Below, piece by piece: positions 1,673 through 37,190 of a stretch of DNA of 37,406 bases. Under the pieces are notes generated by a model. It ran no database searches, was not told the DNA's origin, and saw only the letters and a program-made list of their open reading frames with translations. Every line of letters starts with the position of its first letter. Position 1 is the first letter of the stretch. The translations under genes were made by a program, and so were the position numbers. The DNA is from a virus: IMG/VR virus record IMGVR_UViG_3300047481_001126, positions 1 through 37,406 of that record; one strand, given 5' to 3'.

Positions 1673-3013
1673 ATGAGAAAACTTGAACGTTTATTAGAAC
1701 AATCATTACCCGAGGAATCTTACTATAAGATATCACCTGAAGAATATGTGGAATTAATGAAACTATCGGGTTACCACGGTAAAGGTATTAGTAAACTACC
1801 TAGATTTGAAGGTAAACCTTTATGGATAACAGGTAATTTAGATTTATCAAACACACCAACAGATTCATTAGGTAATATTGGATACATTCAAGGTAATCTA
1901 TCAATTGGTAGAACTAAAATTTCCGATTTAGGTAATACTCAAGTTAAAGGGTATGTTTCTGATTATGGTAGCCCTGTTGAAACCAAAAGAATTGCTGCTA
2001 GACAAAGAGCTAAATCAAATGAAATGGATGAGTACAGAGAATCTGATGATTGGAATTTAAACAATCCTGATATAGATGATTTAGGTCTTAAAGCAAATGC
2101 CCTTTTTGAGTATTTGGTTGGTGATGGGACTTTAGAATCGTTAAGTGAAGATGAAAAAGAAAAAATAAGTCAAAATAGAAGTGAAATCGAAAGATTAGAA
2201 ACTGAAAAAGATAGTCTTAGTATGGACGATGAAGACTGGAATGAAAAAGATGATGAACTTCAGGAACAGATTGATAATTTACAGGAAGAAATTGATGATT
2301 TGATTAGTGACAAAAGTGATGTTTATGTTTTATATCCTGCAGGTGAACACTATGGTTTACAAAGATTTGAAAATTTACTTAGTAGAGATGAAGAATATAC
2401 TGTTGGGACTGAAACTGAAATGGATGATGCTGTTTTAGAATACGCTGAAAATTACATTGACGATGTTGGTATTGAAGGTTTTAATCAAAGTTTTATAGAA
2501 AATTATATAGATGAAGATTATTTAAAAGATTATTTTGAGGACTGGTGGAGAGATGATATATATCAAAATCCTGATGTTTATTTTAATGATGATGATTTTG
2601 AATTAACTCCTGAACAAGAACAAAGAATATCTGAAATTGAAGTTGAAATCGAAGATTACGAAAGAGAACAAAACGAATTAGACCCTGATGACGAAAATTA
2701 CGACAATTATTATGAGGATTTTCAAAACCTAATAGACAAACTTGAATCTGAGAAAGAAGAAATTGTACCTAGTACAGAACCTACCGACGAAATGATTGAA
2801 GAAGTCCTTGAAGATAAACTGTACGATGTAGAACGCAACCCAATGTTTTATATTAAAGAATATGGGTTAAATATTAAAGATTTTGTTGATGAAGACGAAT
2901 TAGCTAAAGGTTTAGCGGATGAAGAAGGTTACGGATTAATGAATTCTTATGACGGTAATTACGACACTATTAATATTAATGGGGAAGATTATTACATAAT
3001 GAGAATTAATTAA
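1673..3013 (+). CDS. Acidic coiled-coil late protein with N-terminal tag
   Basis: This 446-residue protein begins MRKLERLLEQSLPEE, which fits the shared N-terminal tag (here LLE|Q is the [I/L]xE site). Residues about 45-95 form short leucine-rich-like turns (GNLDLSNT, GNLSIGRT) of a kind I recall from phage proteins. The rest is strongly acidic, with two predicted coiled coils (about residues 160-205 and 320-365) separated by Asp/Glu/Tyr-rich helices. No enzyme motif is seen. A TATTTATA box directly precedes the ATG. A virion or capsid-interior protein is the likeliest role, by inference from tag and promoter only. Confidence 0.75.
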   Translation: MRKLERLLEQSLPEESYYKISPEEYVELMKLSGYHGKGISKLPRFEGKPLWITGNLDLSNTPTDSLGNIGYIQGNLSIGRTKISDLGNTQVKGYVSDYGSPVETKRIAARQRAKSNEMDEYRESDDWNLNNPDIDDLGLKANALFEYLVGDGTLESLSEDEKEKISQNRSEIERLETEKDSLSMDDEDWNEKDDELQEQIDNLQEEIDDLISDKSDVYVLYPAGEHYGLQRFENLLSRDEEYTVGTETEMDDAVLEYAENYIDDVGIEGFNQSFIENYIDEDYLKDYFEDWWRDDIYQNPDVYFNDDDFELTPEQEQRISEIEVEIEDYEREQNELDPDDENYDNYYEDFQNLIDKLESEKEEIVPSTEPTDEMIEEVLEDKLYDVERNPMFYIKEYGLNIKDFVDEDELAKGLADEEGYGLMNSYDGNYDTININGEDYYIMRIN

Positions 3014-3055
3014 AGTATTCATTTATGAATAATTCTCTTCTATATTTAAAATAAA

Positions 3056-3838
3056 ATGAAAGCAAGAAGAGGTCATAAAAAAGTCGAGTTCATAATGGAT
3101 ACTGATTGGATATTCCAAGGTATTTTAGATGCGGAGCAAAAACAATATGTACTTTTAGACTATTTTCAAAAACTTAATAAACATTTGGAAAACATGGAAG
3201 TTTACCCAATGTTTATTGAACTATCCCTACATTTAGGTAATATACAAACATTAATTAATCAGAATAAAATATTATATACTCATAAAAAATTTTTAACAAA
3301 TGATGATGAGTTATTAATAACTGATTTAAAAACAAAAGATATCCCTGTTTTATCGGAAGAAGAGATTGTTGAATATCATCAGATATTGAGTAATAGTCAA
3401 CCACAACTGTATGATTACTTTGGTTTTGCAAAGTCTATATGGTCTGTTGTGTATGATTCTGTTGAGGTGGTTATTAAAAAAAATAAAAACAATATTAAAA
3501 GCAAAAACGGATTTTTCTACTTCAAAACAGGTGATGATATATACGTTTGGAAGTACACAATAAAAAGAGTTTATAAAACTAAAGGTCAAACTAAAACAAC
3601 GACCAAATTAATATATTTCGGACCTCAAAAAGATTTGACTATTACAGATATTTTATCTAATTTTTCTAAAAGTTACGAAACTGATAACGAAAGTTTGTAC
3701 CCTTTATTTGAGATTGAGTCCAAAGACATCTTCCCAATAGAAGAAACTCTATTACCAATTTCAAAAAGAAAAATATCTTCTTTTATAAATCAGCAACGTA
3801 ACGTCAGAAATATAAGTAATAAAAAGTTATTGGCGTAG
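3056..3838 (+). CDS. Hypothetical protein (260 aa)
   Basis: The 260-residue protein starts MKARRGHKKVEF. It looks alpha-helical in the first half and beta-rich in residues 155-200, with the basic segment YKTKGQTKTTTKLIYFG. I do not recognise a family. It starts a run of four closely spaced or overlapping ORFs (3056-4424) ahead of glutamine synthetase and is likely co-transcribed with them. A weak TATATTTA element sits about 8 nt upstream of the ATG; neither of the two clear promoter boxes is present. Confidence 0.7.
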   Translation: MKARRGHKKVEFIMDTDWIFQGILDAEQKQYVLLDYFQKLNKHLENMEVYPMFIELSLHLGNIQTLINQNKILYTHKKFLTNDDELLITDLKTKDIPVLSEEEIVEYHQILSNSQPQLYDYFGFAKSIWSVVYDSVEVVIKKNKNNIKSKNGFFYFKTGDDIYVWKYTIKRVYKTKGQTKTTTKLIYFGPQKDLTITDILSNFSKSYETDNESLYPLFEIESKDIFPIEETLLPISKRKISSFINQQRNVRNISNKKLLA

Positions 3839-3840
3839 AT

Positions 3841-4047
3841 ATGGGTTTTAATAAAAGATATGTGAGTCAAAAAATGGTTGAAGAGTATATCTCAAATGAA
3901 AAATCTTTGGATAAATTATTTAGTGCCGACGCTTTTATATTCACAGATACTATTTCTAATGAAGTTTATAAATGGTATTGTGATGGGTTAGATATTAGTG
4001 AAATTAAAACCAAGTTAAAAGAATATCATGAATCAAAAACAATATAA
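3841..4047 (+). CDS. Hypothetical small protein (68 aa)
   Basis: Starts MGFNKRYVSQKMVEEYI two bases after the preceding stop. It is helical and charged, without membrane segment or signal peptide. Its 3' end overlaps the next ORF by 20 nt, which suggests coupled translation. Function unknown. Confidence 0.6.
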   Translation: MGFNKRYVSQKMVEEYISNEKSLDKLFSADAFIFTDTISNEVYKWYCDGLDISEIKTKLKEYHESKTI

Positions 4048-4216
4048 ATTATTAATCTCAAAATTAAGATTACCTGTTCACATATCTTACATAAGTAACT
4101 ATATTTTGAGAGTATCTGAAGAAGAAACACAAAAAATTTTAGACCAGTTAATAGTTGAAGGTGAAATCGAAGAAAGTCAAATATCAAAAGGGTACTACGT
4201 TGTTAAAAACAAATAG
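4028..4216 (+). CDS. Small winged-helix-like protein (62 aa)
   Basis: The pattern of three short helices followed by a two-stranded hairpin (KILDQLIVEGEIEESQ... KGYYVV) resembles a minimal winged-helix fold, as in small DNA-binding regulators. This rests on the pattern alone. It overlaps the preceding ORF by 20 nt and the following one by about 60 nt if that ORF uses its ATG. Confidence 0.55.
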   Translation: MNQKQYKLLISKLRLPVHISYISNYILRVSEEETQKILDQLIVEGEIEESQISKGYYVVKNK

Positions 4217-4424
4217 GTATGTTGTTGACGGACACGGAAAACAATATATTGTGACTTTTTTGAAATATCGTTTATCAATTGGTATTAACGATTATGACTT
4301 TTATGTTAGGTTCGGTGAAAAAGAAATAGGTTTTCATATTACTAAAAAACCTTCTTTTTCTATTAGGGATGGGTATAAAAAAAGTTTTAAAATTTGCAAG
4401 TATTACATAACGAAAATAAATTAA
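4155..4424 (+). CDS. Hypothetical small protein, start uncertain
   Basis: The frame is open from ATG 4155 to the stop at 4424 (89 aa). The first ~15 codons overlap the previous gene and are Lys-rich in a way that suggests a shadow reading, so the real start may be TTG 4200, giving about 74 residues beginning LLKTNRYVVDGHGKQYIV. The remainder alternates beta-prone and aromatic residues (KYRLSIGINDYDFYVRFGEKE). It ends two bases before the glutamine synthetase ATG. Function unknown. Confidence 0.45.
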   Translation: MKVKSKKVKYQKGTTLLKTNRYVVDGHGKQYIVTFLKYRLSIGINDYDFYVRFGEKEIGFHITKKPSFSIRDGYKKSFKICKYYITKIN

Positions 4425-4426
4425 AT

Positions 4427-5668
4427 ATGAAACAAGTAATTGAATATGTTTGGTTAGATGGTTATTTACCTGAACCAAACTTAAGAAGTAAAATTAAAAT
4501 TTTAAGTCATCCACCACTATCATTAGAAGAAATTCCTGAATGGAATTTTGATGGTTCATCAACCAAACAAGCTGAGGGGTCAAAATCAGATTGTATTTTA
4601 AAACCTGTTAGACTATATAGAGAAAACGATAAAAAAGTTTATGTATTTTGTGAAGTGATGAATCCTGATGGAACACCACATGAATCAAATCACAGGGCGC
4701 TAATTGAGGATGATAATAACTTTTGGTTTGGATTTGAACAGGAATATTTTATTAGAGAAGGTAAGTACCGACCTGTTTTAGGTCATAACCCAATAAAACA
4801 CCCAAATCTTGGATTAGAACCTCAAGGTAAATATTATTGCGGAGTTGGGGGTAATGTAGTTGGTAGGGATTTGGTTGAGGAACACATGATGTTTTGTATT
4901 AATGTTGGTATTGATATTACTGGTGTTAACGCTGAAGTCGCACTAGGTCAATGGGAGTATCAGGTGTTTGGTAAAGGTAAATTAAAGGCCTGTGATGATT
5001 TGTGGATGTCAAGGTATTTTATGGAAAAAATTTCTGAAAAATATGGCTACTATATTGAATATCACCCAAAACCATTAGGTAATCAAGATTGGAATGGTTC
5101 AGGATTACACACAAATTTCTCAAACAAACGAATGAGGGAAGAAGGTGGTGAAGACTACTTTAATTCAATATTTAAGGCTTTTGATAGTAGAAAAAATAAA
5201 CACATTGAGGTTTATGGTACTGACAATTACATGAGACTTACTGGTAAACACGAAACACAATCTATTGATAAATTTACTTACGGTGTTAGTGATAGAGGGG
5301 CTTCAATTAGAATACCAAAACAAACTTATGATGGTTGGAAAGGATATTTGGAAGATAGAAGACCAGCTTCTAACGCAAATCCATACCAAATTGTACAGGT
5401 AATTTCAGAAAGTATGAAAATGGCTGAAGAATTACACAATACTTTAAATAACATGTATAGTAATGTAGGTATGAAAAACATCGAAGAAATCATAAAGAAA
5501 TATAACGGAACTATTAAAAACGACGATTTACTTGATGAATATCAAAACGATGAAGACTACGTTGTTGACATGGAAACTATGAACTCTAAAGCTAATGTTT
5601 CGTCAAAAGAAATTCAATTTAATTTTAATAACGTTCAAAGAAGAAACGGTTCAATATTTAACGACTGA
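4427..5668 (+). CDS. glnA: Glutamine synthetase, GSII (eukaryote-like) type
   Basis: ATP-dependent amidation of glutamate to glutamine. The start at 4427 (MKQVIEYVWLDGYLPEP) matches the family better than an in-frame ATG 33 nt upstream. GSII landmarks appear in order: LPEPNLRSKIKIL, EIPEWNFDGSST, FGFEQEYF, YYCGVGGNVVGRD, GVNAEVALGQWEYQ, NWNGSGLHTNFS, RLTGKHET, RGASIRIP and YLEDRRPASNANPY, so metal, glutamate and ATP sites look intact. At 413 residues it is longer than the usual ~340-370; the extra ~70 C-terminal residues are charged and unlike the family. GSII occurs in eukaryotes and some bacteria, including Bacteroidetes, so host acquisition is plausible. It may raise glutamine for nucleotide synthesis during infection; that role is inferred. 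Confidence 0.92.
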   Translation: MKQVIEYVWLDGYLPEPNLRSKIKILSHPPLSLEEIPEWNFDGSSTKQAEGSKSDCILKPVRLYRENDKKVYVFCEVMNPDGTPHESNHRALIEDDNNFWFGFEQEYFIREGKYRPVLGHNPIKHPNLGLEPQGKYYCGVGGNVVGRDLVEEHMMFCINVGIDITGVNAEVALGQWEYQVFGKGKLKACDDLWMSRYFMEKISEKYGYYIEYHPKPLGNQDWNGSGLHTNFSNKRMREEGGEDYFNSIFKAFDSRKNKHIEVYGTDNYMRLTGKHETQSIDKFTYGVSDRGASIRIPKQTYDGWKGYLEDRRPASNANPYQIVQVISESMKMAEELHNTLNNMYSNVGMKNIEEIIKKYNGTIKNDDLLDEYQNDEDYVVDMETMNSKANVSSKEIQFNFNNVQRRNGSIFND

Positions 5669-6927: not shown

Positions 6928-6935
6928 TATTTATA
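6928..6935 (+). promoter_or_regulatory. TATTTATA late-type promoter box
   Basis: TATTTATA lies 14 nt before the ATG at 6950, directly after the methyltransferase terminator, so a new transcript is expected to begin here. Confidence 0.55.
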
Positions 6936-6949: not shown

Positions 6950-8059
6950 ATGCCTAAAATAGTTACAGAATCCGAATTAAAAGATAGAATATTTGAGATA
7001 TATCAAGAAGAATTCCATAAAATTCTTAATGAAAAATGGAATAAATTATCTAACAAAGACAAAAGAATTGTTGTTGAAATGTTAAAAGTGGTTTATCCCG
7101 AAAAAAAACCACTTCTTAAAGAAGATAAATGGTATAATACTGTTGGTGATATTGTTGGTATTTTTGACCCGACAGGGATTGTTGATTTGGTTAATGGTAT
7201 AAGTTATTGGAGACAAGGTGATAAACTTTTTGCTATATTATCATGGGTTTCAGTATTACCATTCTTAGGAGACGCTATCGCCAAACCTGTTATTGGTGTT
7301 TTAAAAGTTGGAGGTTCCGCAACCAAAGCGTTTAGAGCGGCGGTTGTTGCTAAAGATGCTGCTAAAATAGCGTCTACCGCTAAAAAGGCTGGTGGACCAA
7401 TTGCAAAAATGGTTGAAAAGGCTCCGACATGGGGAACAAAATTAGTTGAATTGTTACGAAACTCAGTTGGTAGAGTACCAGGTCTTGGTAAAGGGTTGGT
7501 TAATGCCGTTGAAGAATATGTTCAAATATTTTCAAAAGCGAGTCGTAGTGGTGCAACACTTAAAGCTGAAAAGGCTTTAGGCGCTGCAGAAAAAGAAGAA
7601 TTATTAAAACAAATCGCCAAACAAGAAGGTAAAGTTTTTAGTGGTTATAAAGACATGAAAAATTCTTGGTGGAAGTATATGAAATCAGATGCTAAATTAG
7701 GCCAAAAACTATATGCTGGAGTCCCAAGAATATTCGGTGGAAATCCAGCAACTAGGTCATTAATGAGAAGAACCAAAACCTATTTAGGATTTTTAGATTG
7801 GTTAGGTGTTGCTAATTTTGTGGGACCTGAAGAGTTGGAACAAACTATTCCTAACGCGGAACAAAGATGGGAAGAGTATTCTCAAACACCACAAGCACAA
7901 CAAACATGGAGTTCTGAGATGGGATTGGGTCAAGCACCGCCACCACCTCCACTACCATCTCAAACATCATCAACACCAGCATCTTCACTTGGAAAAGGTG
8001 GTGATATACTATCAACAATAATCGGTGGATTACTTGGCGGACCCGCAAAACTTGTATAA
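6950..8059 (+). CDS. Tagged late protein with hydrophobic Gly/Ala core
   Basis: This 369-residue protein starts MPKIVTESELKDRI, matching the shared N-terminal tag (VTE|S). Residues about 60-120 hold a long hydrophobic stretch with the pattern GDIVGIFDPTGIVDL, NGISYWRQGDKLF and LPFLGDAI, recalling the helical pre-toxin or membrane-active segments of large secreted proteins. After an Ala/Lys-rich helical region comes a Pro/Gln/Ser-rich tail (about residues 325-350, with APPPPPLPSQ) and a Gly-rich end. Its stop overlaps the next tagged gene (TAATG). A structural or ejected internal protein is a reasonable guess; no enzyme motif is visible. Confidence 0.75.
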   Translation: MPKIVTESELKDRIFEIYQEEFHKILNEKWNKLSNKDKRIVVEMLKVVYPEKKPLLKEDKWYNTVGDIVGIFDPTGIVDLVNGISYWRQGDKLFAILSWVSVLPFLGDAIAKPVIGVLKVGGSATKAFRAAVVAKDAAKIASTAKKAGGPIAKMVEKAPTWGTKLVELLRNSVGRVPGLGKGLVNAVEEYVQIFSKASRSGATLKAEKALGAAEKEELLKQIAKQEGKVFSGYKDMKNSWWKYMKSDAKLGQKLYAGVPRIFGGNPATRSLMRRTKTYLGFLDWLGVANFVGPEELEQTIPNAEQRWEEYSQTPQAQQTWSSEMGLGQAPPPPPLPSQTSSTPASSLGKGGDILSTIIGGLLGGPAKLV

Positions 8060-9465
8060 TGAAAAAATTAATTAAAGAGAGCGGACTTAGAGATATAAAT
8101 AAGTTGGCTAAAAGATACCCAAAGGCTGAAATATATTTTCACCAAGATTTGGATGGTGTAACCACAGCTTTAGCAATGAAAAAATATCTAGAAAACAATG
8201 GTATTAAAGTTGTTGATGCTCACGTAATTCAATATGGCGATAAAGAGTTTGCGGTTAAAAAGAATGACGCTCAGGGCGATACAATGCCTGTTTTAGTTGA
8301 TTTTGCACACGGTAAACCAATGTTTGTTATTCACACGGACCATCATGATAGACAGGCTGGGGCTGAAGATACAAAGTCAACCTCATTCAGAGCTTCTCGC
8401 TCAAACGTAGAAACCATATCTCAAGTAGTATCACCAAAAGATGTTTTTACGCCTGAAGATATACAATTAATATCAATGGTTGACTCAGCCAACTATGCGT
8501 CAAACGAAGTTAGTGTTGATGAAGTAATTTCTTATTTATTTAAATTAGATAAAGACGAATCTTTAGCTAAAAATAAAAGAGCACTTGGTTTAGTCGCTAA
8601 CAAATTACTTTTAGCTTTTAAAAACAAACCAGGGTTTCTTGAGGAACTTGTCTTAAAATCATCACCATCTTTACTTAATTTGGTTATGAACATAAAACGA
8701 ATTATGAAAGAAAAAGGTTATGTTGGTGTTGAAGAGTTAGAAAAAAACAAATTAGCGTATATAGAACAAATGAAAACAAGCCCTAACGTAAATGTTATGG
8801 ATAATATTATTGTTCAATATGGTGGTGGTATAATGACCAAACCTGGTTCTTATGATAGATATACACCATTCAAAAATAATCCAGAAGCCGACTTCTTGGT
8901 TATCGCATGGCCTTTAGGATTGGTTCAAGCTTCATGTAACCCTTTCAAAAAAGAGAGAGAATTAAAAGGTGTTAATTTAGGTGAAATTGCTCAAGAGGTG
9001 TTATCAAAATGGGAATCACAACTAAAAGATAGACAAATACCTTTATCAACTATTAAATGGATATCCGAATCATCTAAAGATTTTGGTGGTGAGTCAGTAG
9101 GTTTTACATTTAGAGATTTTGTTGCACTTTATGGAGATAGTTTTAAAACTATGGATAGTGGAAAAGAAATTCTAACTTATATTGGTAAGATAATGGAAAA
9201 ACCATTTACAGAATTAAGCGATGAAGAAATGAGTGTTTTAGACAAAGTAACTATAAATGCTTGGGATTTAATACAGTCGAATAGTGGTGGTCACAAATGT
9301 ATTACCAACATTTCAGGTTTAAATTATTTAGGTAGGTCAAATAGACCACCACAAGGTAAATACAAATACAACCCTGAGTCTGATGATGCACCTTACGTTA
9401 AGTTCACCAAGATGATACAAAATGAATTTGTTAAGGTTTTACAAGAAAAGATTAACTCTAAATAA
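8059..9465 (+). CDS. Tagged DHH/DHHA1-family phosphoesterase
   Basis: The 468-residue protein starts with the shared tag MKKLIKESGLRD and then shows DHH-superfamily motifs: FHQDLDG (DxDG, residues 30-33), a central HTDHHD (92-97) and a C-terminal SGGHK (GGH at 410-412) of the DHHA1 substrate-binding half. DHH enzymes are Mn-dependent phosphodiesterases or exonucleases (RecJ, NrnA and cyclic-dinucleotide hydrolases). The spacing between halves is longer than in NrnA. Start and upstream stop share one base (TAATG), so it is translated with the preceding tagged gene from the late-type box at 6928. The combination suggests an enzyme packaged in the virion; substrate unknown. Confidence 0.82.
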   Translation: MKKLIKESGLRDINKLAKRYPKAEIYFHQDLDGVTTALAMKKYLENNGIKVVDAHVIQYGDKEFAVKKNDAQGDTMPVLVDFAHGKPMFVIHTDHHDRQAGAEDTKSTSFRASRSNVETISQVVSPKDVFTPEDIQLISMVDSANYASNEVSVDEVISYLFKLDKDESLAKNKRALGLVANKLLLAFKNKPGFLEELVLKSSPSLLNLVMNIKRIMKEKGYVGVEELEKNKLAYIEQMKTSPNVNVMDNIIVQYGGGIMTKPGSYDRYTPFKNNPEADFLVIAWPLGLVQASCNPFKKERELKGVNLGEIAQEVLSKWESQLKDRQIPLSTIKWISESSKDFGGESVGFTFRDFVALYGDSFKTMDSGKEILTYIGKIMEKPFTELSDEEMSVLDKVTINAWDLIQSNSGGHKCITNISGLNYLGRSNRPPQGKYKYNPESDDAPYVKFTKMIQNEFVKVLQEKINSK

Positions 9466-10275: not shown

Positions 10276-10317
10276 TGATACACAGCCAAACCCCTTTCTT
10301 TAATGGTTGAAATACTT

Positions 10318-10359: not shown

Positions 10360-10365
10360 TTTTAC

Positions 10366-12498: not shown

Positions 12499-12506
12499 TA
12501 TTTATT
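12499..12506 (+). promoter_or_regulatory. TATTTATT late-type promoter box
   Basis: TATTTATT lies 14 nt before ATG 12521, the same spacing as at 6950 and 14849. Confidence 0.5.
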
Positions 12507-12520: not shown

Positions 12521-12838
12521 ATGGGTAAAGATATTATATTAACCGAAAAACAACTTGAAAAGTTAATTAACGGTGTTAAAGATGGTAGAATTGTTGAGAA
12601 TCATGAAGAAGGTTCTTACATGGCTAAAAAACAATTATTCACTATAGCTATTATGGCTTACAAAATGTGGGAAGAAATGGAAGATGGTGAGCAGTTAGAA
12701 GATTGGATGGAATCTAAGATTGCCCAAGCTGAACAAAGTATTACATCAGTTGTTAAAACATTTATGTATGATGAACTAGTTGATGATAGTGGTGGTATGG
12801 GTAAATTAAACTACGATGAGATTGTTATAGGTAAATAA
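12521..12838 (+). CDS. Tagged virion-type protein (105 aa)
   Basis: Starts MGKDIILTEKQLEKLING, the shared tag with LTE|K. After a short link comes a helical domain (MAKKQLFTIAIMAYKMWEE...LEDWMESKIAQAEQSI) that resembles a helical module I recall from marine-phage virion proteins, where AKxQL...MxDxxQLEDWxxSKI recurs. The protein is acidic and ends DEIVIGK. Its late-type box and tag support packaging in the virion; this is inference. Confidence 0.75.
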   Translation: MGKDIILTEKQLEKLINGVKDGRIVENHEEGSYMAKKQLFTIAIMAYKMWEEMEDGEQLEDWMESKIAQAEQSITSVVKTFMYDELVDDSGGMGKLNYDEIVIGK

Positions 12839-14826: not shown

Positions 14827-14834
14827 TATTTATA
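14827..14834 (+). promoter_or_regulatory. TATTTATA late-type promoter box
   Basis: TATTTATA begins at the base after the preceding stop and lies 14 nt before ATG 14849. Confidence 0.55.
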
Positions 14835-14848: not shown

Positions 14849-15295
14849 ATGGATAAAATCATATTAAAGGAAAAATTATTTGAAGCTGTAAAACAAAAAG
14901 GACTAATTGTTGAACAGAACAATGGTGGTAAAAAAGACTTTACTGAAATGATGTCTTTGTTATTACATTCAAAAACACAATCACATACATTTCATTTACA
15001 ATGTAAATCATACGCTGAGCACATGGCGTTAAACGGTTATTATACTAGCATAGATGAATTAACGGATGGTCTAATCGAGTCTTACCAAGGTAAATACACA
15101 ATATTAAAAGGTTATAAACAATATCCTATTGAAGATTATAAAGATACTACGTCAACAATAAATTACTTCAAAGAGTTATGTGATAAAGTGACGGATTTAA
15201 GAGACTGTTGTAAAGATACTTGGATTCAAAATCAAATTGATAATGTTTGTGAATTAATAAATTCGACATTATATAAGTTGAGATATTTGAAGTGA
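14849..15295 (+). CDS. Tagged ferritin-like helical protein (DUF5856-like)
   Basis: Starts MDKIILKEKLFEAVKQKG with the shared tag (LKE|K, and a second possible site at VE|Q near residue 23). The rest is a helical bundle with the pattern MMSLLLHSKTQSHTFHLQ, KSYAEHMALNGYY and LTDGLIESYQGKY, which I associate with the DUF5856 phage family and with Dps/ferritin-like four-helix proteins (helix-borne His and Glu residues). Whether a metal site is complete cannot be said by eye. The late-type box and tag suggest virion packaging. A terminator follows. Confidence 0.72.
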   Translation: MDKIILKEKLFEAVKQKGLIVEQNNGGKKDFTEMMSLLLHSKTQSHTFHLQCKSYAEHMALNGYYTSIDELTDGLIESYQGKYTILKGYKQYPIEDYKDTTSTINYFKELCDKVTDLRDCCKDTWIQNQIDNVCELINSTLYKLRYLK

Positions 15296-15358: not shown

Positions 15359-15366
15359 TATTTATA
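15359..15366 (+). promoter_or_regulatory. TATTTATA late-type promoter box
   Basis: TATTTATA ends 4 nt before ATG 15371, just after the preceding terminator. A leaderless message is expected. Confidence 0.55.
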
Positions 15367-15370: not shown

Positions 15371-16318
15371 ATGAAAAAATTAATCAAACGTATAATCAAA
15401 GAACAATTAGAAGGTCAAGGTGATAATCCTTTATCTGAAAAAGAAATTCGTTTGTTTAAGTACTTGAATAAGAATAAAGAAAACTATCCTACCCAATCAA
15501 AATTATTGGCATTTGTTAAAACTATGATGCCGTTCATAGGTAGACCTGAGTCTGATGCTAGATTCTATTATGAAGTTTATACCGCTAACTATAGACCTGA
15601 AGGTGATTATGAAAACATAAATAAATTAACTTTTAGAGATTTTAGAAGTTTCAAACAGAGACGAACACCAAACAACACCGCTTATGAATATAGTAGTGCA
15701 AAAATACCATTCAAAGGTTCTAATCTTGAAGGATATTGGGATGTAAATAATAATAATGAATGGTATTATGTTGTTAAATCTTATGGTTGGTATCCAATTT
15801 ATCTATTCATAAATAATAATTGGTATCGAGTTAGTAATAGTTATTCCAGCTCAACAGCAAAACATCTTTCAGGTTCAAATCCTGTTAGATACAATTCTGG
15901 TTTAAAGGCTGATACATATTTGGTAACTCAAGATGAGATTAGTAGTCTAATGAGAGGTGTTTCATTAGATGAAATTAGAAGAAAAAGAGTAACTAATTTC
16001 TCAAGTAAATTTGCCAAATCTTTAATAGGTACAAAAAGAACAATATCTATTGGTTGGTATGAAAATAGAAAAAAAGTTAATTTTACTATATCAAACATTA
16101 AAGAGGAGGATGGTAAGATTAAAATTTATGTTACAATCAATAAAGCTGGGAAAGTTGAAGGTGCTAACAAAATGGTTGTAGACCCTGAAGGATATATCGT
16201 ACCAAGTCCATTCTCAGAAGATATTGAAAATGGTATTAAAGAAAGAGTAATTAGAGATAATAGTGATTACTTAAATGGTGATAACACTGAATTTGTGTTT
16301 GAACATCCCACAAATTAA
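15371..16318 (+). CDS. Tagged late protein (315 aa)
   Basis: Begins MKKLIKRIIKEQLEGQGD, the shared tag, with IKE|Q as the [I/L]xE site. The body is rich in Tyr, Asn and Trp (WDVNNNNEWYYVVKSYGWYP around residues 120-140) and looks mostly beta-structured, with a helical N-terminal third. No enzyme motif recognised. A late-type box lies 4 nt upstream, and a host-type promoter region follows the gene. Probably a virion component, by tag and promoter. Confidence 0.72.
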   Translation: MKKLIKRIIKEQLEGQGDNPLSEKEIRLFKYLNKNKENYPTQSKLLAFVKTMMPFIGRPESDARFYYEVYTANYRPEGDYENINKLTFRDFRSFKQRRTPNNTAYEYSSAKIPFKGSNLEGYWDVNNNNEWYYVVKSYGWYPIYLFINNNWYRVSNSYSSSTAKHLSGSNPVRYNSGLKADTYLVTQDEISSLMRGVSLDEIRRKRVTNFSSKFAKSLIGTKRTISIGWYENRKKVNFTISNIKEEDGKIKIYVTINKAGKVEGANKMVVDPEGYIVPSPFSEDIENGIKERVIRDNSDYLNGDNTEFVFEHPTN

Positions 16319-18207: not shown

Positions 18208-18879
18208 TTAAAACTTAATTTGAAAATCTATATCACGTTCTTCATTTTCTTCCGTGTTTTCTTCAAATTCTAAATAAATTATTTTGTCTTCATATTCAAA
18301 AATAAATCTACCTTGAGAACCTTCATTAATTTCCCACCCACCATAAAATGATTCTAACCAGGCATACAATAAATTTTCAATATTTCTATCAACATCCACA
18401 CCATTACTAGTTCTTGACTCAATATCACCCGAATCACCACCACCATAAAAGGCAACTTCAAAAGTTGGTGAGTCACTTTCCTCAAACATTTTTTCTAAAG
18501 AAGTTATCATAGACTTATCTAATTCATCAAATTCTTTACTATCTGACATTTCGTTAGAACCACGAACAGTTTCAGATAATTCAATCTCTAAAGTTTTTTC
18601 AATGCAGTCTATATTTATTCTTGCCACAGCATAATTTTCACAATCGTCCAAATAATTAAAAATTTCATTTCTTTCCAAAATATTTGTTATAACTTCTTCT
18701 ATTGCGGCATACATTTCCGCTCTACCACCATCATCACCATATAATTCACTAATCCAATCTATTCCACACTCTTGTATACTAACCTCAATGTGTCCCGATT
18801 TTATACCATTTGATTGTGCATAATATGAAAATAATTTAAGTGATTTTAATTCTTCTTCTGTAACTATAGGTTTTTTCAT
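18208..18879 (-). CDS. Tagged acidic late protein (223 aa)
   Basis: Begins MKKPIVTEEELKSLKLF, matching the shared tag (VTE|E). The body is strongly acidic, with Glu-rich helices and a Gly/Ser stretch (FYGGGDSGDIESRTSNG, about residues 145-160). No enzyme motif recognised. A minus-strand TATTTATA box lies 11 nt upstream. The gene converges on the candidate RNA at 17994-18206. Confidence 0.72.
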   Translation of the reverse strand: MKKPIVTEEELKSLKLFSYYAQSNGIKSGHIEVSIQECGIDWISELYGDDGGRAEMYAAIEEVITNILERNEIFNYLDDCENYAVARINIDCIEKTLEIELSETVRGSNEMSDSKEFDELDKSMITSLEKMFEESDSPTFEVAFYGGGDSGDIESRTSNGVDVDRNIENLLYAWLESFYGGWEINEGSQGRFIFEYEDKIIYLEFEENTEENEERDIDFQIKF

Positions 18880-18890: not shown

Positions 18891-18898
18891 TATAAATA
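18891..18898 (-). promoter_or_regulatory. TATTTATA late-type promoter box
   Basis: Minus-strand TATTTATA, 11 nt before the ATG at 18879, in the short gap after the upstream minus gene. Confidence 0.5.
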
Positions 18899-24744: not shown

Positions 24745-24752
24745 TATTTATT
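24745..24752 (+). promoter_or_regulatory. TATTTATT late-type promoter box
   Basis: TATTTATT ends 3 nt before ATG 24756. Confidence 0.5.
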
Positions 24753-24755: not shown

Positions 24756-25313
24756 ATGAAAATAATACTGACCGAAAATCAAATGTCAGCACTGATGTCC
24801 CTTAAAAAGGCGTTTTTTAAGTATTGGGATAAATTTGGTGGTGAAATAAATGATGACTTGCTTAAATTATTTAGTTCACAAAATCATAGAATTGATATTT
24901 TTACTGTCAGAGGATTTTTAAGACAATGGTTAGGTAACGAAGATGCTCACAGATTAGCGAAAGAAATTATAGAAAAAAACCCACATAAAATAGGTGAAGA
25001 TAATTTTATGTGTGGTGGGTATAATTTTGATTTTGATTTAAAAATAGCAAAAGAGATAAATGATGGACGTGAAGAGTTAGGTGTTAGTGAAATTTACGTC
25101 AACGCATATGTTGATGCAAAAAATCCAAATGCTAGTGTTAGTTTAATTATGATTGGAGGGGAAGAACATCAACTTGAAGACGCATTAAAAAATGAAGATT
25201 ATGGCTGGGAAGTTGAGAATGAGATTCAAGAATGTATTTTGGATTATATTGAAAACGAAATAACCAATAAAACAGGTGTTCCTGTGACAATATATAAATT
25301 AGATATTAAATAA
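24756..25313 (+). CDS. Tagged late protein (185 aa)
   Basis: Begins MKIILTENQMSALMSLKKAF, one of the clearest copies of the shared tag (LTE|N). The body is helical in the first half (about residues 10-75), then beta-rich around ISEIYVNAYVDAKNPNASVSLIMIGGEE, and acidic overall. No known motif. A late-type box sits 3 nt upstream. It appears to head a + strand unit with the following three ORFs. Confidence 0.72.
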   Translation: MKIILTENQMSALMSLKKAFFKYWDKFGGEINDDLLKLFSSQNHRIDIFTVRGFLRQWLGNEDAHRLAKEIIEKNPHKIGEDNFMCGGYNFDFDLKIAKEINDGREELGVSEIYVNAYVDAKNPNASVSLIMIGGEEHQLEDALKNEDYGWEVENEIQECILDYIENEITNKTGVPVTIYKLDIK

Positions 25314-28137: not shown

Positions 28138-30363
28138 ATGAGAACTTTGGTTTTCTTTTTTTTGTTGCTTAGCAACTTTTCGTTTTCTCAGTATTGCCCT
28201 TTTTTAGGTCCTGACCAATATCTTCCTTGCGGAGTTAATACAACAACACTTACGGCTGATTTAAGCCAATGTACCCAAGGTACTAATCCTAATCAGACAA
28301 ACACTTATTCTGTATCTCAGATACAATATGTTAACCAAACTAATAATGGTACTCAATTGTTTATGAGTGACGACTCTCAACAAGGGCCATTTAATATTGG
28401 GTTTAACTTTTGTTTTTTTGGGCAAACATACACACAATTTTGGGTTGGTAGTAATGGATGGGTTTCTTTTTCCGCAGGACAACCAACTACATTCACCTCA
28501 ACACCCATACCTTCAGTTGCTGGTAGTGTACCAAAAAACTGTATTATGGGTCCATGGCAAGATTGGCATCCTGGTGTTGGAGGTCAAATAAGATATCAAG
28601 TTCAGGGGACTCAACCGTGCAGAAAGTTGATTGTTAGTTGGATTAATGTACCTATGTTTCAATGTACAAATGTTCAAGGTACATTTCACATAGTGATTCA
28701 TGAGTCAACCAACTATGTTGAAAATTATATACAAATTAAACCAAACTGTTTAACTTGGGCGGGTGGAACCGCAGTACAAGGAATACATAATCAGGCGGGT
28801 ACTGTCGCCTTTACAACACCAGGTAGAAACTCTACAGCTTGGACAGCACTTAACGATGCCTATAGATGGACCCCTTCAGGTACACCTGTATTACCAACAC
28901 TAACTTGGTATCAGGTTGGAAACCCAATACCACTAGGTACTGGACCAACATTAACTGTTACACCACCATCACAAGGTGCGTACTATACTTGTCAATTTGT
29001 TTACCCAACCTGTAATGCAGGATGGAATAGTTGTAATCAACAAGTTGGTTTTGGACCTGACACTGTATTTGTTTTACCTGGCCCACCAAACCTAACTGCA
29101 CCCGCAGTTTTAATAACAGAACCAACGTGTAATAATTTTTGTGATGGTCAAGTATTAGTAACACCTAGTAGTGGTATTGGACCTTTTACTATTACTTGGA
29201 CGGGTGGTTTAAACGGGTTTAACCCAACTGGATTATGTCCTGGAACTTACAACTATATATTAACAGACAACAATGGGTGTGATTATACATCTTTTGTTGT
29301 TTTATTAAATCCTCCACCTGTAGTCATTGATACCATTTTTGGTAATGATACATTATGTGTTAATTCAATAACAAACCAGTTCTCGGTTGTTAACGGTAAT
29401 CCAAATTTAAATTATGTTTGGTCTTCAAATGCGGGACAAATAACTAATGGTCAAGGAACCAATCAAATAAATTTAGACATAACAGGTTTAAGTGGTGGGT
29501 ATTATCCAAATATCATATCTGTTTACGGACAGGATTCAAGTGGATGTAATAGTCAAGTTGAGACGTTTAGTGTTTATGTTTTAGACATACCAATAACTAT
29601 AACACCAATAGGGCCTTTTTGTGTGTACGACAACTGTGTTCAATTAAATGCAACACCCTTTGGCGGACAATTTTGGAGTAACAATGTTGTCAATAATCAA
29701 TATTGTCCAAATTTAAATTTATATGGTCTTGACACTGTTTATTATACCTATAGTCAAAATGGTTGTGTGTTCATGTCAAATACATCAGTAGTTGTTTATC
29801 CTATACCCACAATTCAACCAATAACTAATGGTGTTATTGGTGATAACAGTCAATATCATATGTTATGTTTAGGGGAACAAGACATAGATACTTTTGCGGT
29901 GTTATCCAGTAATTTGATAGGTGACAATGTGTGGTATTATATGAATGATATTATACAAACTGAAGTTTTAGAAATTACTTGGAGTAGTGAAGGAACGTAT
30001 CAATTCTATGTTATACGAGAAGAAAATGGTTGTTTTTCATCACCAACATATTTTAATGTTTCGGTAGAATATTGTCCAGAAGATTTAATTTTTATCCCTA
30101 ATTCTTTTACCCCTGATGGTAATCAACTAAATAATATTTGGAAACCAGAATATAACTCAGCGTTTAATTATAATTTTAAACTTGAAGTTTTTAACAGATG
30201 GGGTGAACTAATATGGGTTTCCAAAAGTACTGACGATGGTTGGGATGGTAGACATAATAATAAACTAGTACCGATTGGTGTTTACGTTTGGAAATTAAGT
30301 TATGGTAACTTTGACGGTTATTACAAATATGAAATGATTGGTCACGTAAATGTGTTAAGATGA
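28138..30363 (+). CDS. Secreted protein with SprB-like repeat and T9SS sorting domain (741 aa)
   Basis: It has a Sec signal peptide (LVFFFLLLSNFSFSQ), then a ~230-residue beta domain (FNIGFNFCFFGQ, VGSNGWVSFS, YVENYIQIKP) typical of Bacteroidetes surface proteins. Around residues 325-400 is a SprB-like repeat: PTCNNFCDGQVLVTPSSG, FTITWTGG, CPGTYNYILTDNNGC. Ig/PKD-like domains follow. The last ~90 residues (FIPNSFTPDGNQLNNIW, FNRWGELIW, DGWDGRHNN) are the T9SS type B (TIGR04131) domain. SprB is the gliding adhesin of flavobacteria. This is the second such protein in 10 kb, which argues against chance. Codons look closer to the phage average than in the PKD gene. Confidence 0.88.
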   Translation: MRTLVFFFLLLSNFSFSQYCPFLGPDQYLPCGVNTTTLTADLSQCTQGTNPNQTNTYSVSQIQYVNQTNNGTQLFMSDDSQQGPFNIGFNFCFFGQTYTQFWVGSNGWVSFSAGQPTTFTSTPIPSVAGSVPKNCIMGPWQDWHPGVGGQIRYQVQGTQPCRKLIVSWINVPMFQCTNVQGTFHIVIHESTNYVENYIQIKPNCLTWAGGTAVQGIHNQAGTVAFTTPGRNSTAWTALNDAYRWTPSGTPVLPTLTWYQVGNPIPLGTGPTLTVTPPSQGAYYTCQFVYPTCNAGWNSCNQQVGFGPDTVFVLPGPPNLTAPAVLITEPTCNNFCDGQVLVTPSSGIGPFTITWTGGLNGFNPTGLCPGTYNYILTDNNGCDYTSFVVLLNPPPVVIDTIFGNDTLCVNSITNQFSVVNGNPNLNYVWSSNAGQITNGQGTNQINLDITGLSGGYYPNIISVYGQDSSGCNSQVETFSVYVLDIPITITPIGPFCVYDNCVQLNATPFGGQFWSNNVVNNQYCPNLNLYGLDTVYYTYSQNGCVFMSNTSVVVYPIPTIQPITNGVIGDNSQYHMLCLGEQDIDTFAVLSSNLIGDNVWYYMNDIIQTEVLEITWSSEGTYQFYVIREENGCFSSPTYFNVSVEYCPEDLIFIPNSFTPDGNQLNNIWKPEYNSAFNYNFKLEVFNRWGELIWVSKSTDDGWDGRHNNKLVPIGVYVWKLSYGNFDGYYKYEMIGHVNVLR

Positions 30364-30750
30364 TTAATTAGGTTCTAAATGAACCGCATCTAAACCAAAT
30401 TTTTGGTTTAACCATTCTCTAACATATTTTTTAACCATTTCTTCCGTAAATAGATTGGATAAAGGTGTGTATACGTAGTTTGTATCTAATTCAATTAATG
30501 GAAATACATGAGGAGGATAGTAATCCTCAACACCTGTAATATCTTCATATGATTGAGGGTCTCTATAATAAGTAAATACATGGTCATAATCAGGGTCAAT
30601 ATCTTCACCCCAACTAACTTCTTGAAAATACTCCTTTGCGTCGACAGGATAACCTGTTCTATGTTCACTAACATCTTTAAACAAAGGAGAGTCATCTAAA
30701 TAATTGAATATTGAGTCTCTTACTTTAGATTCGGTTAAAAATATTTTCAT
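30364..30750 (-). CDS. Tagged late protein (128 aa)
   Basis: Begins MKIFLTESKVRDSIFNYLDD, a clear copy of the shared tag (LTE|S). The body is acidic and aromatic (DPDYDHVFTYYRDPQ), ends in a short helix, and shows no known motif. It abuts the stop of the preceding + gene with no gap. Its minus-strand box TATTTATC lies 5 nt upstream, in a 36-bp gap shared with the divergent tagged gene at 30787. Confidence 0.72.
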   Translation of the reverse strand: MKIFLTESKVRDSIFNYLDDSPLFKDVSEHRTGYPVDAKEYFQEVSWGEDIDPDYDHVFTYYRDPQSYEDITGVEDYYPPHVFPLIELDTNYVYTPLSNLFTEEMVKKYVREWLNQKFGLDAVHLEPN

Positions 30751-30755: not shown

Positions 30756-30763
30756 GATAAATA
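30756..30763 (-). promoter_or_regulatory. TATTTATC late-type box, minus strand
   Basis: Ends 5 nt before ATG 30750. It faces the plus-strand box at 30776-30783 across 12 bp. Confidence 0.5.
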
Positions 30764-30775: not shown

Positions 30776-30783
30776 TATTTATT
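30776..30783 (+). promoter_or_regulatory. TATTTATT late-type box, plus strand
   Basis: Ends 3 nt before ATG 30787. A second overlapping TATTTATA at 30780-30787 is less likely because it runs into the start codon. Confidence 0.5.
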
Positions 30784-30786: not shown

Positions 30787-31842
30787 ATGTCAAAAGAAAT
30801 AATTAAAAAAATGATAAACGAAGTTTTAGGTGTTCCTGAAAATTTAACAAAAACAGCTAGAATAGTTTATGATGAAGTGTACAACGCGATACCTGATGAT
30901 ATAGATTTTGACGACATTGACGGATTTAATAAAACAATTTATGGTGACTTTGAAATTGCCGATTACAGATTCAATGAAATTAATTTTTCAATGAAAATCA
31001 AAGAACACAGCGACTTTGAATTAATTGGGATGGCCACAGGTGAGGAAAGTAAATTAACTAAAAAATTTAAACTTAAGAGTCGTGTTAAGAATAATTTTGG
31101 TTTAGAGTTTAGGTTTGTTGGACCCAAAGAAATCACAGGCGCTGATATTAAAAACTTAATGAAAAGTAAAAGAGCTGAATTTATTGGTTCAATTGGACAC
31201 GAACTAAAACATAGATACGATTCTTCTAAAAAAAGAAAATCACCATTAGCGTCAAGAGTTAAGTATCAATCAACTTCAGGTAGAGGTTTTGGTGATATAA
31301 CACCAATAAATAAATTTATACATTTCATGTATTATGCTCACATTACTGAAAGTTTAGTTAGACCAAGTGAATTAGCATCTATTATTGATGATGGACAAAT
31401 TACAAAAAAAGAATTTTATAATTTTATAACAAGTACAAGAACTTACAAAACTTTAACTGATTTAAAAAACTTTAATTACGATACCTTTAAAACCGAAATT
31501 AAAGAAGAGATTCCAAAAATAAAACAACTATTCGATTATAATGATGTTGATTATGATGGACTCTCTGATGACCAAATAGTTGAAAAGACCTTAGAACTTG
31601 CATTTAAAAATATTATTTCATGGCAAGGTCAAAACATGGTTTCATTTTTATCTCAACACCCTTTAGAGGCGATTTTTGGGTTCAGAGGTGAAAAACAAAT
31701 ATTCTTCGATAATTTTATAAAACATTTAGAAAGATTTGGAGATAACTATGAAAAGTTTTATAATTATGAAATAAAACTATTCAACCAAGTTGGTGAAAAA
31801 ATGATTCGTAAGATTATCAAACTTTACGATTTATCAAAATAA
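30787..31842 (+). CDS. Tagged protein with HExxH metallopeptidase motif
   Basis: ATG 30787 is chosen over an upstream in-frame ATG because the late-type box lies just before it. The start MSKEIIKKMINEVLG fits the tag (INE|V). Residues 138-142 are HELKH, a zinc-protease HExxH motif within a helix (FIGSIGHELKHRYDS), and an ITESLVRPSE segment with Glu188 about 50 residues later could give the third ligand and a gluzincin-like site. The rest is helical and not recognised. At 351 residues it has room for one peptidase domain. If active, it would be a virion-packaged or late peptidase, such as a cell-wall or scaffold enzyme; substrate unknown. Confidence 0.72.
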   Translation: MSKEIIKKMINEVLGVPENLTKTARIVYDEVYNAIPDDIDFDDIDGFNKTIYGDFEIADYRFNEINFSMKIKEHSDFELIGMATGEESKLTKKFKLKSRVKNNFGLEFRFVGPKEITGADIKNLMKSKRAEFIGSIGHELKHRYDSSKKRKSPLASRVKYQSTSGRGFGDITPINKFIHFMYYAHITESLVRPSELASIIDDGQITKKEFYNFITSTRTYKTLTDLKNFNYDTFKTEIKEEIPKIKQLFDYNDVDYDGLSDDQIVEKTLELAFKNIISWQGQNMVSFLSQHPLEAIFGFRGEKQIFFDNFIKHLERFGDNYEKFYNYEIKLFNQVGEKMIRKIIKLYDLSK

Positions 31843-32678: not shown

Positions 32679-33422
32679 ATGTTTAACTTTTTTGAAGTTG
32701 GTGGTTGCGTCAGAGACGAAATTCTTGGTTTAAAGTCCAAGGACATTGACTATGTTGCCGTCCCTAATGAAAATCTTTTAGACAAATATAAAGATGCTTA
32801 CGAAATGTTTGTTATCTTGGAAACGTATCTTAGTTCTGAAAAGTTTGAAATTTTCTTGTCAACACCTGAGTGTTTTACAATCAGAGCTAAGTTCCCAAAG
32901 GGACACAAATACCAAGGTGTTGCTGACTTCGTAATGGCTCGTAAGGAGATTGGATATGTTGAGGGCACAAGACAACCCATTATCGTCCCTGGTACTCTAT
33001 ACGATGATTTAATTCGTAGGGATTTCACTTTGAACGCTCTCGCTAAAGATGAAGATGGTAATATTATTGACTACTTTGACGGTATGTGGGCATTAGAGGC
33101 AAGAATGTTAATAACACCTTTGGATTCTCGTATAACCATGTTAGATGACCCACTTAGACTTTTGAGAGCTTTTAGGTTTTCAATTACAAAAGAGTTTGTT
33201 ATTTCACCAAGAGTTTGGGAAACCTGTTTAATGGATAGTGTTGTTAACAAACTTGAAGAGGTTGTCTCACAAGAAAGAATTCGTGAAGAAGTCTTTAAAA
33301 TGATGAAACACGATACAATTAAATCTTTAGACTTATTTTATGACATAAACCGCATAAATCCAAAACTTATTCAGATTATGTTTGGTAGAGGAATGTGGTT
33401 AAAACCAACAATGGAACTATGA
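32679..33422 (+). CDS. CCA-adding-enzyme-like tRNA nucleotidyltransferase
   Basis: Class II nucleotidyltransferase / poly(A) polymerase head domain: VGGCVRDEILG at residues 7-17, the metal-binding DID (22-24), RRDFTLNALA (about residue 112) and DPLRLLRAFRF (about 155). These are the family's diagnostic motifs. At 247 residues it is much shorter than the usual ~400, lacking most of the body and tail that hold tRNA. It could therefore act on a different or smaller RNA, or repair CCA ends with reduced selectivity. The next gene starts within its stop (ATGA). Confidence 0.88.
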   Translation: MFNFFEVGGCVRDEILGLKSKDIDYVAVPNENLLDKYKDAYEMFVILETYLSSEKFEIFLSTPECFTIRAKFPKGHKYQGVADFVMARKEIGYVEGTRQPIIVPGTLYDDLIRRDFTLNALAKDEDGNIIDYFDGMWALEARMLITPLDSRITMLDDPLRLLRAFRFSITKEFVISPRVWETCLMDSVVNKLEEVVSQERIREEVFKMMKHDTIKSLDLFYDINRINPKLIQIMFGRGMWLKPTMEL

Positions 33423-35923: not shown

Positions 35924-35944
35924 ATCTTTAACTATTTTGTATTA

Positions 35945-35952
35945 CAAAGATA
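35945..35952 (-). promoter_or_regulatory. TATCTTTG host-type promoter of lipoprotein
   Basis: Minus-strand TATCTTTG, 21 nt before ATG 35923. It lies 24 bp from the plus-strand late-type box at 35977-35984, so two promoter classes sit back to back. Confidence 0.55.
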
Positions 35953-35976
35953 GGTAAATAAACTGAATCCACAAAG

Positions 35977-35984
35977 TATTTATA
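35977..35984 (+). promoter_or_regulatory. TATTTATA late-type promoter box
   Basis: TATTTATA lies 12 nt before ATG 35997. Confidence 0.55.
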
Positions 35985-35996
35985 ATAAAAATTTGA

Positions 35997-37190
35997 ATGA
36001 ACATTAAGAAGTTTTTGATAACTGAATCAGAAAAGAAGGATATACTCAAACAATACGGTATTTTATCTGAACAAGCGACAGATAACACCCAACCAAGTAA
36101 AACGTTGGAAGTTGATGTTAGAGTTACATTCAAAGGAGGTTATTATAGTGAAACATATGCGGATTTTAAAAATACTTTAGACCCTGAACTAGCTAAGGTA
36201 ACTGAATTTTTAAAAAATGGTCAAGGAAAGGCTTACATGGTTAGCGTTATGTTAGGGGGAGGAGAATCAAGAATCCCAAATACTGATAATGAAAAGGGTG
36301 GTACTAGAGTTGAACCTGGAACTTTATCCAAGAAAAGAACAGCAACAATTCAAAATTACATTACAAAACAACTACAGTCATATGTCAATCAAAAGTTATT
36401 GTTAACATTACCATCATTCAAAGTAGTTAACCCTCAAGGTGATGTCGGTGGTCCTAAATGGATTGGACAACCTTTTTGTCCTTCAAATAAAATACCTGCT
36501 GATGACAAACAAGGTTATGTATGTTTATCAAAAACTTTTGACCCAGGTAATGGAATTAAAAATTGGTTTAATGGAAAACAAACTGATTATGCGACACAGC
36601 TTAATGAATATATTAACGCTCAATACCTACGAGTTAAACTTAAGTTAGAGGAGTTAACCACAATTAAAGAATGTTTAGATAACATGGTTATTGAAATTAA
36701 TTATACGGACTTAAGCAAAGGTCATAAATGTAATAGTTCTGTATATGAGATAACATTAAATGATGTTCCACTAACAAGAGATGACGGTAAAAAATATGCC
36801 AGTTTAAATAACGCTAAAAGAAAAGATGGTACTCCTGACCCATATGATAACAATCCTGGTACTTGTACAGGTAGTGGTAATACCGATAAAACCTGTATGA
36901 GGTATAATAAATTTATTGTTAGTCCTGATTTAGCCAACAAAATATTATCCGCAACAATACCTAATACAAAACCTGGTCAGACACCTAAATTTAGAATCGG
37001 AGCAACTTGTAGAAATTATAATAATGAAAGTCACCACAAATGGGGTAATGGATGTCATGAAGGGGCTGGTGATATTAAAGTTACAAATGGTAAAGGTCAA
37101 GTATTCAATTATCAAGCATCAACCCCAACAGGAAAAGACCAAACAGCATATATGAAAGACATAAACGCTTGTGGTAAAGAAACTAAATAA
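35997..37190 (+). CDS. Tagged late protein (397 aa), possible OmpA-like segment
   Basis: Starts MNIKKFLITESEKKDILKQY and continues GILSEQ, the longest copy of the tag, with ITE|S and a second LSE|Q near residue 26. Residues about 95-135 (IPNTDNEKGGTRVEPGTLSK, then RTATIQNYITKQL) recall an OmpA-like peptidoglycan-binding stretch, but only in part. The C-terminal third has an even set of cysteines (CTGSGNTDKTCMRY, CRNYNNESHHKWGNGC) that may form disulfides or bind metal. The late-type box is 12 nt upstream. Probably a virion protein; exact role unknown. Confidence 0.72.
   Translation: MNIKKFLITESEKKDILKQYGILSEQATDNTQPSKTLEVDVRVTFKGGYYSETYADFKNTLDPELAKVTEFLKNGQGKAYMVSVMLGGGESRIPNTDNEKGGTRVEPGTLSKKRTATIQNYITKQLQSYVNQKLLLTLPSFKVVNPQGDVGGPKWIGQPFCPSNKIPADDKQGYVCLSKTFDPGNGIKNWFNGKQTDYATQLNEYINAQYLRVKLKLEELTTIKECLDNMVIEINYTDLSKGHKCNSSVYEITLNDVPLTRDDGKKYASLNNAKRKDGTPDPYDNNPGTCTGSGNTDKTCMRYNKFIVSPDLANKILSATIPNTKPGQTPKFRIGATCRNYNNESHHKWGNGCHEGAGDIKVTNGKGQVFNYQASTPTGKDQTAYMKDINACGKETK

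Follow-up and report, generated by a model that had tools for sequence, protein, structure and literature searches.

Short N-terminal leaders on unrelated proteins of giant T4-like phages as probable capsid-targeting propeptides

Leader-bearing genes of the window

The window is the whole of IMG/VR record IMGVR_UViG_3300047481_001126, a stretch of 37,406 bases that is a fragment of a larger phage genome and a piece of a giant T4-like phage lineage. A preliminary description of it had singled out eleven proteins that share a basic and hydrophobic N-terminal peptide (here called the tag or leader) ending in [I/L/V]-x-E, in the manner of the propeptides of phage T4 internal head proteins. All eleven N-termini are present in the sequence as described; nine or ten of them are real N-terminal tags, and one, on the minus-strand gene at 18879, is doubtful. 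The bodies behind them are unrelated, as had been claimed: no pair matches at E<1, and the only families recognised are DHH, DUF5856/phrog_858 and DUF6878. A 95.9-kb contig carries the window region nearly unchanged, and the nearest named records are the uncultured huge phages LR745206 (634,780 bp) and LR756502 (642,428 bp), whose DHH proteins are 45% and 41% identical, respectively, to the window copy. Gene calls throughout are simple ATG-start reading frames.

The window leaders are 7-26 residues long and retain the hydrophobic-x-E ending, with T4-like spacing kept only loosely. Below, a slash marks the predicted cleavage point, and genes lie on the plus strand unless stated otherwise. Seven-residue forms are MPKIVTE/SELKDRIFEIYQEE (6950..6970, on a 369-residue protein), in which [TNK]E[SN] is retained in the listed homologues; MKKLIKE/SG (8059..8079) on a 468-residue DHH phosphoesterase-like protein; MKIILTE/NQ (24756..24776, 185 residues), whose homologues begin MKLIITE/SRY or MKIIITE/SRY and have a linker of variable length ahead of the conserved body; and MKIFLTE/SKV (30730..30750, minus strand, 128 residues). 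Another short tag, MRKLERLLE/QSLPEE with the cut predicted after the E, heads a 446-residue acidic protein (1673..1699), and homologues with the same YYKISPEEY body have other tag types such as MANKVRLTEQGLQQLIKRIVEE and MKHFLRKILKE/Q, short in some phages and long in others. The 315-residue protein at 15371..15403 begins MKKLIKRIIKE/QLEGQG, with MKNLITKILKE/S and MKNLIKLIVE/Q in homologues. The tag MSKEIIKKMINE/VLGVPE (30787..30822) stands on an HExxH protein (HELKH) whose homologues have a different leader, MKIKITETQYKNLDE/AVGVPE; the leader ends in NLDE/AVGVP there and in MINE/VLGVP here, and the E thus directly abuts the body.

E7 of the DHH protein is unchanged throughout the 16 window-lineage homologues that were aligned, as well as in the distant one at 45% identity; the same body in the 634-kb relative begins MISKYNQFINE/EVG. 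A profile search of this protein against the PDB returned chance matches only. Its AlphaFold model is mediocre (predicted local distance difference test score, pLDDT, 65.6), with the first 11 residues among the lowest (~32), which is compatible with, but not proof of, a detached leader.

Three leaders are long: MGKDIILTEKQLEKLINGVKDGRIVE/NHEEG, ending RIVE/N, on a 105-residue protein (12521..12598); MDKIILKEKLFEAVKQKGLIVE/QNNGG on a helical DUF5856/phrog_858 protein (14849..14914), as placed by homologue comparison; and the bipartite MNIKKFLITESEKKDILKQYGILSE/QATDN, ending ILSE/Q, on a 397-residue protein (35997..36071). Some of the cleavage positions first proposed were wrong: in these three, processing would probably occur at the second [I/L/V]-x-E at residues 22-26. 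Homologues of 14849 often have D in place of the first E (LKE) but keep the later LIVE/Q-like [IL]xE/Q site; AlphaFold of this protein alone gave an uninformative model (mean pLDDT 40). The bipartite form is also found in sister contigs and in the Flavobacterium phage vB_FspM_immuto (e.g. MSKKLLITEEEKNNIKSLYNINE/Q, MKKQILSEQFKRMQFLAGIITE/S). The doubtful tag, MKKPIVTE on a DUF6878 protein (18856..18879, minus strand), is so regarded because its homologues (VTPEQL/LTPEEL) have P or D where the E stands; the motif is probably a helix cap inside the folded body.

A literal [ILV]-x-E ending at residues 7-12 occurs in 13/43 window genes as against 22/168 internal methionines (13%; binomial p=3e-4 against any window), and a looser [ILV]xE version gives 31.8% against 21.3% in the 635-kb relative; this bare test was rejected as too weak, at only 1.5-2.3 times the level at internal methionine sites. 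A start-anchored pattern of a basic and hydrophobic leader followed by [TKNQL]E[SNEAKQDGV], composed after the tags had been seen, finds 10/43 window genes and 1/168 internal methionines.

Promoter-like motifs before the tagged genes

The heptamer TATTTAT is found in the 50 nt ahead of 10/11 tagged window genes and of 5/36 others (Fisher p=5.6e-6). On the plus strand, these late-promoter-like copies are at 1662..1668 (before 1673), 6928..6934 (before 6950, and before 8059, the tagged gene without its own copy, which follows at 0 bp), 12499..12505 (before 12521), 14827..14833 (before 14849), 15359..15365 (before 15371), 24745..24751 (before 24756), 30776..30782 (before 30787) and 35977..35983 (before 35997); on the minus strand they are at 18892..18898 (before 18879) and 30757..30763 (before 30750). 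The association is also significant in the sister contig G004 (p=0.004). TAnnTTTG, a Bacteroidota-type promoter, precedes 0/11 tagged window genes. This second, host-type class of promoter-like motif is seen upstream of 10379, 11623, 19334, 31879, 32679 and other window genes that are untagged, e.g. the SmpB-like and CCA-transferase-like ones.

Among the large relatives, TAATATATA stands before 46/67 tagged and 65/375 untagged lead genes of LR745206 (p=1.5e-16), and before 56/83 tagged and 66/380 untagged lead genes of LR756502 (p=1.2e-18). For TAnnTTTG the corresponding counts are 1/67 against 72/375 and 1/83 against 64/380. In LR745206 TAATATATA also fronts the portal, the protease and many large tail-like genes, and the DNA ligase has TAnnTTTG; TAATATATA and TATTTAT are taken as putative late promoters.

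Number and dialects of leaders in giant relatives

As the preliminary description had proposed, a profile of the tag was built and its matches counted. In LR745206 an iterated start-anchored profile finds 127 proteins, with 8/2,822 internal methionines passing, and a second pattern adds 30 (5/2,974 internal methionines), giving 157/905 tagged reading frames; applied unchanged to the held-out LR756502, profile and pattern give 178/949, against 0.74% of internal methionines. The anchored profiles stand ~25-60 fold above their internal-methionine controls. Window-lineage contigs are incomplete, and the tagged share on the larger ones is ~9-14% of genes against a background of 2-4%.

LR745206 and LR756502 (635-642 kb) have a dialect of the forms MKYLKxFNE/S and MIKKYNQFINE/x, and the MIKKYNQFINE class of LR745206 fits the T4 YxxFIxE positions, with aromatic or hydrophobic residues at 4, 7 and 8 and E at 10. 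A third lineage, that of contig G036, has 25 leaders of near-uniform MKHIKLFEEFVNE/A (2/899 internal methionines), with F84/Y16, F88, I/V/L and E100 at those positions. The 151 tagged LR745206 bodies fall into ~137 clusters, an overcount because of a loose paralogous group among them. Small tagged proteins of a loose paralogous family with the motif DIxxELxDxGFxVxI are seen in LR745206 and LR756502.

An equal frequency of the tag in clearly early proteins, which the preliminary description had named as an outcome that would speak against its reading, is not seen: the translation, replication and nucleotide-metabolism cores of LR745206 are untagged, including EF-G, DNA ligase, Hsp70, gyrase A and B, thymidylate synthase, an AAA ATPase, a helicase and a tRNA synthetase.

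Exchange of leaders and nature of the putative cargo

Homologous bodies are found behind different leaders. An Acb1-like 2H phosphoesterase body, present in three lineages under three dialects, begins MKLKKYKQFIKE/S in LR745206 (448257), MIKKYLEFMKE/S in LR756502 (473869), MKKIKLFEEFLNE/K in G036 (2454) and MNLNEELSKMKSIMGINE/N in G004 of the window lineage (178348), and is tagged as well in G058 and G060 (L370, L371); the PF23474 match is above cut-off in G004, G036, G058 and LR756502 and below it in LR745206 and G060. Likewise a HAD-like body (YYAFDWDDN) has MIKKFNQFLE/N in LR745206 and MLKNKITE/G in G004, and the DHH leader differs in the same way. LR745206 has tagged forms of a CCA/poly(A) nucleotidyltransferase, a P-loop kinase and a Nudix protein whose window-lineage counterparts (window 32679, G004 117210, window 9823) start directly at the domain, with no tag. 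Since the same bodies occur with the local dialect or without a tag, tags are gained, lost and exchanged, and bodies adopt the dialect of their lineage. An untagged window protein with many CxxCxGxG zinc-finger (DnaJ-like) repeats (26637-27527, minus strand) also has homologous bodies in LR745206 (60030, 90898) that are tagged.

Among the tagged LR745206 proteins are RNA ligase 1, a poly(A)/CCA polymerase, a Nudix hydrolase, one with a weak match to Toprim, and the Acb1-like domain, which is joined there to a DnaQ-like exonuclease. PADLOC returned no more than scattered matches to the tagged proteins, these being weak or generic. The T4 enzymes Acb1 (the product of gene 57B), RnlA and NudE are without a leader.

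Protease, capsid protein and putative scaffold

A gp21-like protease, which the preliminary description had asked for, is not on the window fragment. Searches of the DHH-gene contigs with PF03420 and with the single LR745206 protease or major capsid protein sequences gave no match, and the lineage's head genes came to light only when thymidylate synthase was used to walk to contig G028, which has the same tag dialect and, e.g., a near-identical homologue of window protein 33395. There, in T4 order, are a portal (phrog_213, 5e-68), a gp21-type protease (phrog_207, E=6e-44) and a gp23-type capsid protein (phrog_138, 6.5e-67). A gp21-type protease was also found in LR745206, LR756502 and LR756501, and is annotated in phage immuto.

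The predicted site of the G028 capsid protein is SFLINE/ATGEGSNGSFETV (SFLINE/ATGEGSNGSF), the T4 gp23 counterpart being SFLTE/AEIGG. Between the protease and capsid genes, in a gp22-like place, lies the acidic scaffold-like protein 100220 with the predicted sites DLVKE/SLTE/Q. Near these head genes a tagged HExxH protein begins MNKNNKIQIKE/ATGESGTRGSF, in which the residues after the E copy the start of the mature capsid protein; in LR745206, where the capsid protein site is predicted as SINE/NAYANASNVSGMGAV (SINE/NAYAN), a tagged 84-residue protein echoes it with KKFIE/NADGSSTSGMGAV. Such predicted sites, common to leaders, capsid and scaffold-like proteins, are the strongest sequence argument for the leaders as prohead-protease substrates. 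A gp21-type protease fused to ~10 SEY[LIV]AE/N repeats is seen at 198546-200669 of LR745206; the repeats plausibly make up a scaffold that could be cut once in each of them, in one chain with the protease.

Other genes of the window and the likely host

Two large secreted-looking plus-strand proteins of the window (20693-24736 and 28138-30363) have a signal peptide, the first also PKD-like repeats, and C-termini resembling the CHU_C or type IX secretion system (T9SS) type B sorting domain (NSFTPDGNQLNN...WDGRHN...GVYVWKL). LR745206 too encodes comparable proteins with signal peptides. Such secreted proteins are odd for a phage, and this points to a Bacteroidota host. By eye, host-like metabolic genes are also present (glutamine synthetase-like, SmpB-like, RmlB-/RmlC-like sugar genes and CCA nucleotidyltransferase-like, at 4394-5668, 10307-10816, 12901-13824, 14050-14556 and 32679-33422).

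Interpretation and alternatives

The tags are very probably capsid-targeting propeptides of the T4 internal-protein kind, greatly expanded, to judge from their sequences and those of the head genes. A late-transcribed cargo protein would bind the prohead scaffold core through its amphipathic leader of 7-26 residues; the gp21-type prohead protease would then cut after [I/L/V/F]-x-E, the same type of site being expected in the capsid protein and scaffold; and the leader would be lost, leaving the mature protein in the head to be injected with the DNA. Each lineage attaches a dialect of its own to unrelated bodies, and this dialect has presumably evolved together with the lineage's scaffold and protease.

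Several observations weigh against this reading. Several first E positions of the window dialect vary among homologues, and [ST]-x-E-x-Q/L has the look of an ordinary helix cap too. Neither the window contig nor its near-identical 95.9-kb sister carries head genes, and G028 100220 is called scaffold-like from its position and composition only. The TATTTAT association is marginal in G028 (p=0.04) and absent in the sister contig G003 (p=1). In addition, the tagged set of LR745206 includes a few false positives (e.g. 498323, 265283 and AsnRS 336643), and about one in ten of its proteins share an ELxDxG motif and may be paralogues.

That the tag is instead a localisation or docking peptide for some other late structure (replication factory, phage nucleus-like shell, membrane, tail or baseplate), uncut by the prohead protease, is improbable. 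Any trans-acting receptor would also suit lineage-specific dialects, late promoters fit many late structures, and the E is sometimes replaced in the window dialect; yet the [ILVF]-x-E site at which the leaders end is of the type seen in the capsid and scaffold-like proteins that the same genomes encode, the N-terminus of the mature capsid protein recurs directly after the E in two tagged proteins, and the G036 dialect is nearly the T4 leader MKTYQEFIAE/A, which is proven to target and be cut (PMC9026906). A mere effect of chance or start-codon context, in which AT-rich genomes give MK-rich starts and [ILV]xE is common, would account for the slight enrichment of the bare motif and probably for 18879 on the minus strand, but is highly unlikely as a general explanation and was rejected for most tags, given the anchored enrichment over internal methionines, the invariant DHH E7 and the independent association with a promoter motif. 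Slighter still is the chance that the tagged proteins are diverged paralogues sharing an old N-terminal domain, to which the loose ELxDxG group lends some colour; shared ancestry of the bodies was rejected on their number of clusters, on the diversity of the cargo (Nudix, RNA ligase 1, poly(A)/CCA polymerase, 2H phosphoesterase with exonuclease, DHH) and on the homologues that are untagged or under another dialect.

If the tags are capsid-targeting propeptides, the cargo could be pre-loaded counter-defence, a reading that is attractive because T4 Ip1-3 block GmrSD enzymes after injection (PMC12373910), and some of the loaded proteins would be likely to disarm bacterial defences. A wider proposal, which might as well prove wrong as right, is that giant Bacteroidota T4-like phages pre-load their heads with well over 100 proteins by a universal, lineage-specific code, as an injected counter-defence and takeover proteome (directed against cyclic-oligonucleotide-based anti-phage signalling (anti-CBASS), or serving RNA repair and nucleotide cleansing) that acts before phage gene expression. 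Enzymes that T4 makes in the cell (Acb1, RNA ligase 1, Nudix) are then predicted to arrive ready-made from these phages. The tag would be a sequence-readable label for proteins that the phage likely injects, turning hundreds of unannotated giant-phage genes into ranked candidates for virion-delivered effectors and counter-defence proteins. Co-variation of dialect, scaffold and protease lets the recognition code of prohead loading be tested by comparison, and may offer new leader/protease pairs for putting cargo into phage heads.

Comparison with known systems

The 10-residue leader of phage T4 depends on residues 4 and 7 for packaging and on residues 8 and 10 for processing; cleavage by gp21 follows L/I-x-E, and attaching the leader to foreign proteins gets them packaged and delivered (PMC9026906). 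As a positive control, the same patterns were run on most of the T4 genome (209 frames), where their matches include IPII, IPIII, Alt, gp24 and gp67; the internal proteins (IPs), Alt and gp67 are known gp21 substrates (PMC9026906), as is gp24 by a note in its sequence record. Recovery of gp21 substrates in T4, together with movement of the tag between bodies, supports the modular packaging signal that had been suggested for the window. As here, T4 IPI-IPIII, Alt and gp24 have an N-terminal leader on unrelated bodies, with a hydrophobic core ending in [L/I]-x-E, and T4 likewise has a gp21/gp22/gp23-type head module, late expression (suggested here, indirectly, by the promoter-like motifs) and often A or S after the cut. 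By analogy, core binding, cleavage after the E, departure of the leader, and retention and injection of the cargo most likely proceed as in T4.

The differences are of scale and variety. T4 internal-protein leaders are ~7-19 residues long, those here 7-26, including long leaders of 20-26 residues that end in [IL]xE/Q; T4 has three IPs and Alt and related phages at least 10 Ips (PMC12373910), as against ~150-180 tagged proteins per 635-642 kb genome here. Several dialects are present, of which that of G036 is close to the T4 leader, and the cargo includes homologues of enzymes (Acb1/57B, RnlA, NudE) that have no tag in T4. That unrelated internal proteins of T4-like phages share a leader is known, and T-even relatives have already been mined for such proteins (PMC12373910, PMC9026906). 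Within the literature covered, a search found no report of the tag in huge phages; what appears to be new is the scale, together with the lineage-specific dialects, the bipartite form of the long leader, the association with promoter-like motifs and the presence of enzymes among the cargo.

The giant phages phiKZ, 201phi2-1 and SPN3US also load and trim many head proteins. Those cleaved number at least 19 in phiKZ and 201phi2-1, nine substrates are counted for SPN3US, and most have long propeptides (PMC10052503); unlike the system described here, they are without a short shared leader dialect. An isolated phage, vB_FspM_immuto (Immutovirus; host Flavobacterium sp. LMO8), combines genes of the gp20/gp21/gp23 type with leaders of a similar kind, about a dozen or more in number, such as MENFDLKKFLVENKLTTNSKILKE/N and MKKQILSEQFKRMQFLAGIITE/S. 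It differs in its 160-kb genome and far fewer tagged proteins, and its cultured host makes it a test system.

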